A stretch of DNA of 64,000 nt from an uncultured Pelagibacteraceae bacterium. GTDB taxonomy: Bacteria; Pseudomonadota; Alphaproteobacteria; Pelagibacterales; Pelagibacteraceae. The stretch spans positions 58,917 through 122,916 of the forward strand of contig CACEFK010000003.1 in assembly GCA_902558835.1 (NCBI GenBank). Direction: 5' to 3'. The notes below the pieces were generated by a model that saw only the letters and a list, made by a program, of their open reading frames with translations, was not told where the DNA came from and ran no database searches. The position numbers and the translations under genes were made by a program. Of this stretch, positions 44,136 to 49,153 are shown in pieces (position 1 is the first letter of the stretch; each line of letters begins with the position of its first letter).

Positions 44136-44892
44136 TTATTATGCTTTTAAAGCAATTTATCTACATGAGATGGACAGATTTAAACGAACATTGATGCAAT
44201 CTTTGTTATCGCCAGTTTTATCTACCTCTTTATATTTTATTGTTTTTGGATCAGTAATTGGAGGCTATGTAGAAAATATTGATGGGATTAGTTATGGATC
44301 ATACATTGTTCCAGGTTTATTGATGCTTACTCTTTTAACTCAATCAATCAGTAACACATCCTTTGGTATATTTTTTCCTAAATTTAATGGAACTATTTAT
44401 GAAATCTTGGCAGCTCCCATATCAACTTTAGAAATTGTTCTTGCTTTTGTTGGTGCTGGTGCAACAAAAACTTTAATTGTAGGTTTTGTAATTTTTATAA
44501 CCGCAACATTTTTTGTAGAGGTAGATGTAAAATATCCTTTATTAATGATATTTTTATTAGTTTTAGTTGCGTTTACTTTTGCCTTGTTTGGTTTTTTAAT
44601 CGGATTGATGAGTTCTAACTTTGAGCAAATGTCAATTATACCAACACTAGTTATTACTCCGATGGTATTTTTAGGTGGAAGTTTATATTCTTTAGATATG
44701 CTGCCAGAATTTTGGCAGATGGTTACATATTTTAATCCAGTAGTTTATTTAATAAATGGATTAAGATTTTCATTTTATGGAGTATCAGATTTTAATATTT
44801 GGGTTAGCATCGTCTCTATGGTTGCATTTTTATTAGGATGCATCACGATTGTTACTATTTTACTTAAAAAAGGTTACAATATTAAATCTTAG
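44125..44892 (+). CDS. ABC-2 type exporter permease (YadH-like)
   Basis: Six-TM-like; [59 protein letters not shown]. Confidence 0.88.
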
Positions 44893-46028
44893 CTACTAGC
44901 TAATTTCTTTTTAGGATCATAAAAAGGTTTTTCTACAATGGTAGCAGAATATTTACCTTCATGAGTTTGAACATCTAATTGATTTCCTAATTCTGAATAA
45001 TTTATTTCTATCATTGCAAGTGCAATATTTTTTTTTAATCTAGGTGAATATACAGCTGAGGTTACTTTACCAATTGTCTTACCATCTTTTTTAATTGGCC
45101 AAAAAGTTGTGTTGGGTCCTGATAAAGGATCGCAATCAATTATTAGTCCAACCTGTTTTCTCTTTATCCCATCTTGCTTAATTTTTTTTAGAGCATCTTT
45201 ACCTATAAAGTCTATATTAGTTTCTAAATTAACTAATCGATCTAATCCTAACTCAAATGGATTGGTATGAATGTCAGCATCTGCATGATATGAAAGCATA
45301 CCGCCTTCAATTCTTCTTATGGACGATGTATGACCTGGTTGAATTCCATGTTCTTTACCAGCAGACATAATTTTTTCATATAATTCATTTCCTTTTAAAC
45401 CATCTCTTAAATATATTTCATAACCAAGTTCACTTGACCAACCTGTCCTTGAAACAATTAGCGGAATTCCATCAAGCTGATATTCTCTTAGCCAATAATA
45501 TTTAAGATCTCTGATGCTCTCACCAAATAATTTAACCATTATTTCTTGTGAGGTAGGTCCTTGTAACTGTAGAGGGGATACATCTGGTTCAGATATTTTA
45601 ACATCTAAACCTGAATTAATCGCAACACCTTGTGCCCATAACAAAACATCACTATCTGCCAAGGATAACCAAAAATGATTTTCTGCTAATCTTAGTAAAA
45701 CTGGATCGTTTAATATGCCTCCATCGTTATTTATGATTAATACATATTTACACTGTCCTATTGATAATTTTGAAAGGTCTCTAGGAGTTAATAATTGTAT
45801 AAATTTGTAGGCATCAGGACCAGTTATTTCAACCTGTCTTTCGACCGCCACATCACATAAGATTGATTTTTCAATAAGGTTCCAAAAGTTTTGCTCAGGA
45901 CTTCCAAAGTCTCTTGGAATATACATATGATTATATACAGAAAAACCTGTAGCTCCCCATTTAACAGTAGAGTCGAAATATGGAGACTTTCTTATTTGCG
46001 TTCCAAAACCAAAGTTTTTATTAGACAT
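44889..46028 (-). CDS. dmdA: DMSP demethylase DmdA-like (GcvT family)
   Basis: 379 aa GcvT-fold: CDVAVERQVEITGPDAYKFIQLLTPRDLSKLSIGQCKYVLIINNDGGILNDPVLLRL, GWSSELGYEIYL; closely resembles SAR11 DmdA from memory. Confidence 0.78.
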   Translation of the reverse strand: MSNKNFGFGTQIRKSPYFDSTVKWGATGFSVYNHMYIPRDFGSPEQNFWNLIEKSILCDVAVERQVEITGPDAYKFIQLLTPRDLSKLSIGQCKYVLIINNDGGILNDPVLLRLAENHFWLSLADSDVLLWAQGVAINSGLDVKISEPDVSPLQLQGPTSQEIMVKLFGESIRDLKYYWLREYQLDGIPLIVSRTGWSSELGYEIYLRDGLKGNELYEKIMSAGKEHGIQPGHTSSIRRIEGGMLSYHADADIHTNPFELGLDRLVNLETNIDFIGKDALKKIKQDGIKRKQVGLIIDCDPLSGPNTTFWPIKKDGKTIGKVTSAVYSPRLKKNIALAMIEINYSELGNQLDVQTHEGKYSATIVEKPFYDPKKKLASS

Positions 46029-46119: not shown

Positions 46120-47394
46120 TTAAAACTGTTCTGACTCAGTAGATCCAGCCATTGCTGTAGTTGAACTTTGACCGCTACTGATAGTATTTGATACTGCATC
46201 AAAATAAGATGTACCAACTTCTCTTTGGTGTTTAACACTAGTATAACCATCTTTTTCTCGAGCAAATTCTTGTTGTTGAATTCTAGAGTATGCAGCCATA
46301 CCTTCTTTTCTATATTTTTCAGCAAGTTCAAAGATTGCAATATTTTGAGTGTGAAAACCAGCAAGAGTAATAAATTGAAATTTATAACCCATTTTTGCAA
46401 TTTCTTGTTGGAATGAAGCAATTTCATCATCGCTTAGATGTTTTTTCCAATTAAAAGAAGGTGAACAATTATAAGCTAAAAGTTTTCCAGGAAATTTTTC
46501 ATGTATTGCATCAGCAAACATTTTAGCTTCTGCTAAATTAGGCGTTGCTGTTTCACACCAAATCAAATCAGCATAAGGTGCATAAGCCAAACCTCTAGAG
46601 ATAGCCTGTTCAATTCCATCTTTTACATAATGGAAACCTTCAGGAGATCTTTCACCTGTTAAAAATGGTTTATCATTTTCATCAAAATCATTCGTAATTA
46701 GTTTTGCAGCATTCGCATCAGTTCTAGCTAAAATAATTAATGGAACCTCTGCAATATCAGCAGCTAATCTTGCAGCTTTTAGATTTTTTACCATTGTTCC
46801 TGTTGGCACCAAAACTTTACCACCCATGTGACCACATTTTTTTTCACTAGCTAGCTGATCTTCAAAGTGTACACCTGCAGCACCTGCTCTTATAAATTTT
46901 TTAGTTAATTCAAACACATTTAATGGACCACCAAATCCAGCTTCACCGTCAGCAATAATAGGTAACATGTAATCTGTACTATCTTCTTTTTTCATATCAC
47001 CGTCTTGCATTTCCATATGTTGAATTTGATCAGCTCTGATTAAAGAATTATTCATAGACTCAACTAATTTTGGTGCACTATCATAAGGATATAAAGATTG
47101 ATCTGGATACATTTCACCAGCTGTATTTGCATCAGCAGCAACTTGCCATCCGCTTAAATAAATTGCTTTTAAACCAGCTTTTGCATGTTGTACTGCTTGA
47201 TTACCTGACAAAGAGCCAAGTGTGTTCACATATGGCTCAGAATTTAATAATTTCCAAAGTTTTTGAGATTGGTTTTTACACAAAGAATATTCAATTTTAA
47301 TTGAGCCTCTTAATCTTTCAACTTCTTCCTCAGTATAGTCTCTTTTTATTCCAGCAAATCTTTTTAAGTCGTATGAGATTTTTTCTGCACTCAT
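46120..47394 (-). CDS. aceA: Isocitrate lyase
   Basis: [14 protein letters not shown] active-site motif, [42 protein letters not shown]. Confidence 0.95.
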
Positions 47395-47445: not shown

Positions 47446-47607
47446 TTAGTTGCTATCGTCTAAGGCTTTGATTAGCTCACTCATTCCACTTGAACCCCAA
47501 TCACAATGATCATCTCTCATGTAGATTCCTCTACTGTTGTGCTGATCTAAGTCCTCTTTTTTGATGATTTGAGCTTCATTTTCTGTGTTTTTTAAATTTT
47601 TATCCAT
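47446..47607 (-). CDS. Small ORF, 53 aa, upstream of aceA (not in supplied ORF track)
   Basis: MDKNLKNTENEAQIIKKEDLDQHNSRGIYMRDDHCDWGSSGMSELIKALDDSN*; fills the gap between aceA and the divergent promoter, TATAAT just upstream. Confidence 0.6.
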   Translation of the reverse strand: MDKNLKNTENEAQIIKKEDLDQHNSRGIYMRDDHCDWGSSGMSELIKALDDSN

Positions 47608-47620
47608 GTAAATTATATAT

Positions 47621-47637
47621 TTTACAGAATTTACAAA
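47621..47637. repeat. Candidate operator copy 1: TTTACAGAATTTACAAA
   Basis: 16/17 identical to 47695..47711. Confidence 0.6.
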
Positions 47638-47694
47638 ATCTATAAAAAACGTTAAAAAGCTTTGTAAATAGGGAAAAAATATTGTAAAAATAAA

Positions 47695-47711
47695 TTTACA
47701 AAATTTACAAA
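47695..47711. repeat. Candidate operator copy 2: TTTACAAAATTTACAAA
   Basis: 16/17 identical to 47621..47637; 8 nt before the regulator ATG. Confidence 0.6.
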
Positions 47712-47719
47712 TAGTAAAT

Positions 47720-49153
47720 ATGAGTCAAATAGATTTAAAAATAGGGCCTAAAATCAAGTCTTTTAGAAGACAGCTTGGTCTTCAAGCGAACAAATTAGCA
47801 GAAGATTTAAACATTTCACCAAGTTATTTAAATCTTATTGAGAGTGGAAAAAGAAAAATAGATGGTGATCTACTATTAAACTTATGTGAAAGATTAAATA
47901 TTCAGTTATCAGATCTTACTTCAAAAACAGATATTAATCTTCAAAATACAATTTCTGAGATTTTAGATGATAGTTTATTTGAGGATTTAGATATTTTAGG
48001 ACCTGAAGTAAAAGATTTAGTTAGTACCAATCCAAAAATTGGAAAAGCAATTGTAAGACTTGGAGATATTTTAAAAAAAAAAGATCACGAACTAATTAAT
48101 AAGATTGAAAAAATTTCTGGTAAAATTGTTGATAATAGAAAAAATTCTTTTCCAGGAGAAGTTATTTCAGACTTTTTACAAGAAAATAAAAATTACTTTC
48201 CTAAGTTAGAAGAATTTGCCAATAAAGTATTTGATAAAATTCAAAAAAATAATCGTACAAGATATATTGCTTTATGTGAATATCTGTATTCAGAATATTC
48301 AATTACTGTAAAAGATGTCATTCCTGATGAAAGCAAACCATTTTCAAAAATTTATAATAAAAATAAAAAAGAGTTGTTGCTTAGTGATTACAGTTCACTA
48401 GAAACAAAAAAATTACATGCAGCTGCACAAATAGCACAAGAAGGCGCTAATAAAGAAATTGATGACTATCTTTCTAAATTTAGTTTTCCCTCTGAGGAGT
48501 CAAAAAAATTAACTAAAGTTGCTTTGCTAAATTATTGTGGAGCGGCGATTTTAATGCCTTATAAATTATTTCATTCTGAGTGTAAAAAACTTAAATACGA
48601 TTTAGAGTTACTTCAAAATACTTTTGCAACATCTTTTGAACAAGTAGCTCATAGAGTAACTTGTCTTCAAGATCCAAAACTTCCTGGAATTCCTTTTCAT
48701 TTTTTAAGAGTTGATATGGCAGGTAATATTTCTAAAAGATTTTCTTTATCAGGTATAGATATCCCAAGATATGGTGGTGCTTGTCCACGATGGAATGTTT
48801 ATTCTGCTTTTACTAGACCAGGGGTTATTCAAGCAGCTGTTAGTAAAATGAATAATGGTGAAAAATACGTTTGTATTGCAAGAACTGTTGAAAAAGGTAT
48901 CGGACGATTTGGTCAAGCAAAGAGTGTTTTATCTATTGGACTTGGATGTGATGCAAAATATGCAAAAGATTTTGTTTATACTGAAAACGTAAATATAAAT
49001 GATAAATCAACTGAAATTCCAATTGGAGTTTCTTGCAGAACCTGTGACAGATTAGATTGTTCACAAAGAGCATTCCCACCATTACATAAAAAATTTGATG
49101 TTGATTTAAATACAAGAGGTGTTTCTGTTTATGTCAGCGATGACAAAGCTTAA
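47720..49153 (+). CDS. XRE-type HTH regulator with ScfR/RamB-like C-terminal domains
   Basis: IKSFRRQLGLQANKLAEDLNISPSYLNLIESGKRKIDGDLL HTH; GVSCRTCDRLDCSQRAFPPL C-terminal motif; divergent to aceA. Confidence 0.82.
   Translation: MSQIDLKIGPKIKSFRRQLGLQANKLAEDLNISPSYLNLIESGKRKIDGDLLLNLCERLNIQLSDLTSKTDINLQNTISEILDDSLFEDLDILGPEVKDLVSTNPKIGKAIVRLGDILKKKDHELINKIEKISGKIVDNRKNSFPGEVISDFLQENKNYFPKLEEFANKVFDKIQKNNRTRYIALCEYLYSEYSITVKDVIPDESKPFSKIYNKNKKELLLSDYSSLETKKLHAAAQIAQEGANKEIDDYLSKFSFPSEESKKLTKVALLNYCGAAILMPYKLFHSECKKLKYDLELLQNTFATSFEQVAHRVTCLQDPKLPGIPFHFLRVDMAGNISKRFSLSGIDIPRYGGACPRWNVYSAFTRPGVIQAAVSKMNNGEKYVCIARTVEKGIGRFGQAKSVLSIGLGCDAKYAKDFVYTENVNINDKSTEIPIGVSCRTCDRLDCSQRAFPPLHKKFDVDLNTRGVSVYVSDDKA

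Follow-up and report, generated by a model that had tools for sequence, protein, structure and literature searches.

The window analyzed here, a 64,000-nucleotide stretch of DNA from an uncultured Pelagibacteraceae bacterium, contains an intergenic region of 112 bp (47608-47719) that separates two divergent units: a small open reading frame followed by aceA on the minus strand and the gene of an ScfR-family regulator on the plus strand. A sequence-only reading of this stretch had named an aceA gene here, and the product of the frame at 46120-47394 (minus strand) indeed scores 724.9 bits against the isocitrate lyase model PRK15063, above the cut-off of 562. Immediately downstream of aceA, in the same orientation, lies a gene for a GcvT-like protein (44889-46028, minus strand), which reaches 399.9 bits, compared with a cut-off of 410 for DMSP demethylase. 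The first gene of the aceA unit (47446-47607, minus strand) encodes an unannotated protein of 53 amino acids with the core RDDHCDWGSSGM, which takes a DDQDWGSSGM-like form in other genera; searches of Pfam and NCBIfam gave no match for it. The protein was seen in the window and in loci L004-L027, L029-L032, L064-L067, L072-L075, L079, L081 and L082, with one copy per genome that adjoins aceA in every locus read, and its substitution pattern indicates purifying selection (mean pS 0.63, pN 0.25; mean dN/dS about 0.29 for unsaturated pairs). In some SAR11 genera, a second small protein, rich in Cys and Asp, occupies the same place, with the sequence NIESNCVSFDDACFDE or the variant HDDVCFFDQDP (upstream of aceA in L064 and L065; also in L068-L070). 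This protein and its variants possibly represent one diverged family.

The divergent gene (47720-49153, plus strand) encodes a protein with the complete architecture of the ScfR family (PF09856), consisting of an N-terminal XRE-type helix-turn-helix, a central IrrE/M78-like region and a C-terminal ScfRs domain, all of which score above their cut-offs in profile searches (HTH_3, 43.9 bits; Peptidase_M78, 40.3 bits; ScfRs, 200.2 bits). Its earlier description as an ScfR/RamB-like regulator is well founded, since RamB (NF038139) is also its best NCBIfam match, with a full-length alignment, though the score of 357.8 bits remains below the cut-off of 700 bits and places the protein outside this equivalog as curated. 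The four [4Fe-4S] ligands C363, C447, C450 and C455 (PrpR numbering) are cysteines in the window protein and in every full-length homolog aligned, and two of the five PrpR CoA-contact residues checked are kept in the window protein (R338 and K347). The recognition helix reads SYLNL or a close variant in nearly all alphaproteobacterial homologs located beside aceA or aceB, and SYLNQ in the three proteins from the PrpR/PccR side, a group of which few members were sampled. In the window, as in the SAR11 loci read, the regulator gene lies beside aceA and is divergent from it. In one locus (L026, genome G137), the full-length regulator frame appears to be preceded by a tandem duplicate of its N-terminal helix-turn-helix part, in the same open frame. 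The nearest relative of the regulator outside SAR11 in our sample (L084, genome G330) shows a similar box layout and has a GMC-oxidoreductase-like frame upstream, with no aceA found within 1.5 kb in that direction.

The intergenic region contains two near-identical 17-mers, found exactly where the sequence-only reading had placed them. The first, box A (47621-47637, plus strand; TTTACAGAATTTACAAA), is a tandem of TTTACAGAA and TTTACAAA with a 9-bp period and overlaps the spacer of the candidate promoter of the aceA unit; both of its TTTAC half-sites are invariant or nearly so among 25 same-genus genomes. It is followed by a degenerate third repeat (47639-47646, plus strand; TCTATAAA), which reads TCTACAAA in several relatives. 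The second, box B (47695-47711, plus strand; TTTACAAAATTTACAAA), combines TTTACAAAA and TTTACAAA in tandem and ends 8 bp 5' of the regulator start codon. The additional copies reported to lie between the two boxes are likewise present as a pair of inverted half-sites set 20 bp apart, namely TTTGTAAA at 47661-47668 (minus strand, which reads TTTACAAA) and ATTGTAAAA at 47681-47689 (minus strand), whose GTAAA and TTGTAAA columns, respectively, are invariant in the genus alignment. The original notion of a paired 17-mer was correct with regard to the pair and incomplete with regard to the feature, which is a three-part array composed of box A with its degenerate third repeat, the middle inverted half-sites and box B. 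Its basic unit is the tandem TTTACA-N3-TTTACA, with its 9-bp period, rather than the 17-mer pair as such. An Rfam search of the window revealed no RNA element in the intergenic region. The candidate -10 element of the aceA unit (TATATA, 47614-47619, minus strand) is located 6 bp from the ATG of the small open reading frame; it reads TATAAG or TATAAA in relatives, with TTATAA columns that are nearly invariant in their alignment. Its position suggests that the transcript of the aceA unit may be leaderless, with box A over the spacer of this candidate promoter.

In principle, such repeats could arise from AT-rich low-complexity sequence or reflect general promoter elements, of an UP-element-like kind or overlapping the -10 and -35 positions, without the involvement of a dedicated regulator. 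The AT content of the region is indeed very high, and dinucleotide shuffling of the 112-bp sequence yielded a 17-mer pair with no more than one mismatch in 6 of 1000 trials, so that the near-identical pair alone is less striking. However, low complexity does not account for the number and periodicity of the half-sites: there are eight TTTAC/GTAAA half-sites in the 112 bp (shuffle mean 1.1) and two pairs with a 9-bp period (shuffle mean 0.004), values that were reached in none of 5000 shuffles. Nor does it account for the occurrence of the same motif upstream of homologous regulators in other alphaproteobacteria, including GC-richer ones. As to general promoter elements, the conserved block does partly overlap the likely -10 element, but the exact motif occurs nowhere else in the genome. 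Across the whole assembly of 1,085,051 bp, the IUPAC pattern TTTACARAATTTACAAA has exactly two perfect matches, both at this locus, and the reversed control pattern has none; within the 64-kb window, TTTAC-N4-TTTAC is present at box A and box B only. The motif is not common across unrelated intergenic regions. A promoter element of general use is also at odds with the fact that the array is lost or decayed where aceA is kept and the regulator is lost (see below), and we regard an origin of the repeats from base composition or common promoter signals as highly improbable.

Matches with up to one mismatch outside the locus are few and scattered, and the 14 exact off-locus copies of TTTACA-N3-TTTACA, found in six genomes, all lie inside open frames, with no context common to relatives. 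A wider regulon was rejected on these grounds, and the array and its regulator apparently form a single-target pair, as expected of a local regulator.

The array is retained in all 25 same-genus relatives aligned, and the most conserved non-coding columns of these loci are box A, the two middle GTAAA half-sites and box B. The distance from the start of box A to the start of box B is 73-74 bp in these genomes, corresponding to about seven helical turns. Across SAR11, the array is kept while the orientation of its boxes is rearranged. Several other genera have three boxes, with box A pointing forward near -100/-90, a middle box in reverse orientation near -47/-38 and box B, also reversed, near -15/-6 from the regulator start. 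In these genera, the half-sites of the middle pair have a spacing of 9-10 bp, as opposed to 20 bp in the genus of the window, where box B is turned round. In total, 43 of the 44 distinct loci with both regulator and aceA contain the array, each scoring at least 9 of 10. The exception (L070, genome G013) has a regulator that adjoins aceA and no recognizable TTTACA box. This locus shows TTAAC repeats instead, perhaps reflecting a change in DNA specificity.

The phylogenetic distribution links the array to the adjacent regulator. Of 147 genomes of the family, 58 carry aceA and 55 carry the regulator, two sets that coincide with few exceptions, and two near-complete genomes of the same genus (G088 and G127) lack aceA, the regulator and the small open reading frame altogether. 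Five genomes possess aceA without the regulator, and in all four of them with readable upstream sequence the tandem box is absent or decayed (none keeps the tandem), in a comparison of related and partly incomplete genomes in which the absence of the regulator was judged partly from incomplete ones. Two of these loci, L078 and L079, still contain degraded remnants of the boxes (TTACTATATTTATAAA and TTAACTATATTTTAAA); the 53-residue protein persists in L079 despite the loss of the regulator. The disappearance of the array alongside the regulator is supportive of a role as its operator, short of conclusive. It also bears on the idea that the array serves a different transcription factor, encoded elsewhere, that controls both divergent genes. 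The assignment of the array to its neighbor is a prediction, which leaves room for such a factor, but array, regulator and aceA share their pattern of gain and loss, the architecture matches a proven site of a homologous regulator in the homologous position, and the single genomic target fits a local regulator. A regulator acting from elsewhere is therefore very unlikely.

Collectively, the repeats, their locus specificity, their conservation, their loss with the regulator and their homology to a characterized operator, all computed here, make us confident in the prediction that the array at 47608-47719 serves the adjacent ScfR/RamB-like regulator as its operator. This regulator would act locally, control its own gene and govern the small protein-aceA unit. 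The link between aceA and an ScfR/RamB-like regulator put forward by the sequence-only reading is upheld, as a prediction, by a motif that is specific to this promoter, conserved in relatives and absent or decayed where the regulator has disappeared.

Binding, direction of control and ligand are the parts of this model that we infer. The helix-turn-helix domains of the regulator, probably arranged in a tetramer as in PrpR, would bind the TTTACA repeats at their 9-bp spacing. Occupation of box B and the middle sites at the start of the regulator gene may mediate autoregulation, and occupation of box A over the promoter of the divergent unit, with or without the middle sites, would control aceA. 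A CoA thioester bound to the C-terminal [4Fe-4S] domain may set the DNA-bound state and thereby the flux into the glyoxylate shunt.

As to the direction of control, activation as in Paracoccus is slightly favoured, while the position of box A over the spacer would also permit repression. A variant of the operator model that differs in the sign of control thus holds that the regulator is mainly a repressor of aceA, with a loop between box A and box B that keeps both promoters shut and is released by a CoA ester or by loss of the cluster. In line with this variant, box A falls between the -10 and -35 positions proposed for the aceA unit, the spacing between boxes A and B is fixed within the genus at about seven helical turns, and RamB of M. 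tuberculosis represses icl1 (PMC6765138). On the other hand, the RamB protein of Paracoccus denitrificans, which among the studied systems comes closest in function and operator, activates glyoxylate cycle genes (PMC10370305), and the box spacing in other SAR11 genera differs from the 73-74 bp seen here. We consider predominant repression a serious possibility, albeit with a probability somewhat below even.

The signal sensed by the predicted operator-regulator pair probably differs from that in Paracoccus, because the Ccr enzyme of the ethylmalonyl-CoA pathway is absent: none of the 147 family genomes contains a Ccr homolog above the cut-off. The Paracoccus ligands are thus unlikely to operate in SAR11, and intermediates of this pathway were rejected as ligand candidates. 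Another conceivable scenario is that the [4Fe-4S] cluster serves as an iron sensor that raises isocitrate lyase levels when iron is scarce, with the DWGSSGM protein exerting further control on the enzyme. If true, this would explain the higher per-cell expression of SAR11 aceA published for Southern Ocean water under iron limitation (Beier et al. 2015, as cited in PMC6618146). However, the cluster of PrpR resists EDTA (PMC6765138), which argues for a structural role, and we view the sensing scenario as improbable. In the genome of the window, malate synthase G is preceded by a glycine riboswitch aptamer (65.7 bits; L111, 3733-3816, minus strand). A glycine riboswitch before malate synthase is a hallmark of SAR11 and, together with the size of the assembly (1.085 Mb) and the aceA/DMSP-demethylase-like gene neighborhood, identifies the genome of the window as SAR11-like. 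No perfect TTTACA tandem was found near malate synthase in this genome, and the gene was rejected as a co-target. With malate synthase behind a riboswitch and no further target of the array found, different signals seem to govern the two halves of the glyoxylate shunt in this organism.

Regulators are few in SAR11 genomes, and the locus provides a concrete predicted pair of operator and regulator in this group. It concerns the branch point between respiration and the glyoxylate shunt, which, according to the work on the Southern Ocean cited above at second hand, responds to iron limitation. Very probably, the neighboring relative of RamB docks at the repeated 17-mer and thereby controls both itself and aceA in SAR11. 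While the RamB-type switch as such is already known, tracing it into one of the most abundant groups of marine bacteria is new; our full-text literature searches turned up neither a paper that names a regulator of SAR11 aceA nor one on an ScfR in SAR11.

The comparison with known systems clarifies which of them is the better reference. The mycobacterial PrpR site, TTTGCAAA-N-TTTGCgAA (PMC6765138), is a 17-bp tandem with the same 8-1-8 layout, and its core differs from the SAR11 core TTTACAAA by a single base, with A in SAR11 where PrpR/RamB has G. M. tuberculosis PrpR also shares the C-terminal domains, all four cluster cysteines and a divergent metabolic target with the SAR11 regulator, but it controls the methylcitrate cycle. 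The PccR-type ScfRs located beside propionyl-CoA carboxylase genes, as in Sinorhizobium meliloti (L115), belong to the same family and are preceded by a 9-bp repeat (AATTGCAAAATTGCGAAA), but have a TTGC core and pccB/pccA-like neighbors. In an unrooted tree, the SAR11 regulators and Paracoccus RamB fall on one side and PrpR, the Nocardia and Streptomyces proteins and PccR on the other (support 100/96). The resemblance to the actinobacterial RamB core noted previously is sound; as a refinement, the alphaproteobacterial TKACA box of P. denitrificans is the better reference, and class 1 RamB (TTTGCAAA) was dropped as a direct model. In the same tree, the SAR11 proteins branch separately, joined by a small number of further alphaproteobacterial proteins that are mostly encoded beside aceA, and a midpoint root places them outside the Paracoccus RamB clade. 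We therefore propose that the SAR11 regulator works like a class 2 RamB, without claiming strict class membership.

In P. denitrificans, RamB (class 2, Pden_1365) is likewise an ScfR-family regulator divergent to glyoxylate-cycle genes, with its [4Fe-4S] ligands kept, and its two boxes have been proven by mutation and biolayer interferometry (PMC10370305). We recovered this locus from strain DSM 413 and found the boxes TGACAAACCTTACAG and TGACAATACTGACTG, 32 bp apart, which read TGACA-N4-TTACA and TGACA-N4-TGACT and start 2-3 bp before the ramB ATG. As in SAR11, each box consists of two T[T/G]ACA half-sites with a 9-bp period (T[T/G]ACA-N4-T[T/G]AC). Several SAR11 genera match the layout, with one box directly before the regulator gene and another about 32 bp further upstream (-15/-6 and -47/-37), an arrangement that is rearranged into box B and the middle half-sites in the genus of the window. 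The two systems differ in the core (TTTACA in SAR11, TGACA in P. denitrificans), the extra box A at the aceA-side promoter in SAR11, the gene order, with SAR11 aceA following the small protein and malate synthase lying elsewhere, and the lack of Ccr, and hence of ethylmalonyl-CoA pathway ligands, in SAR11; the regulators are 32% identical. Beyond these two groups, the exact tandem is present within 250 bp upstream of the regulator in 14 of 34 other, mostly alphaproteobacterial ScfR loci, as compared to 0.075 expected. The RamB box thus extends into SAR11 and other alphaproteobacteria.
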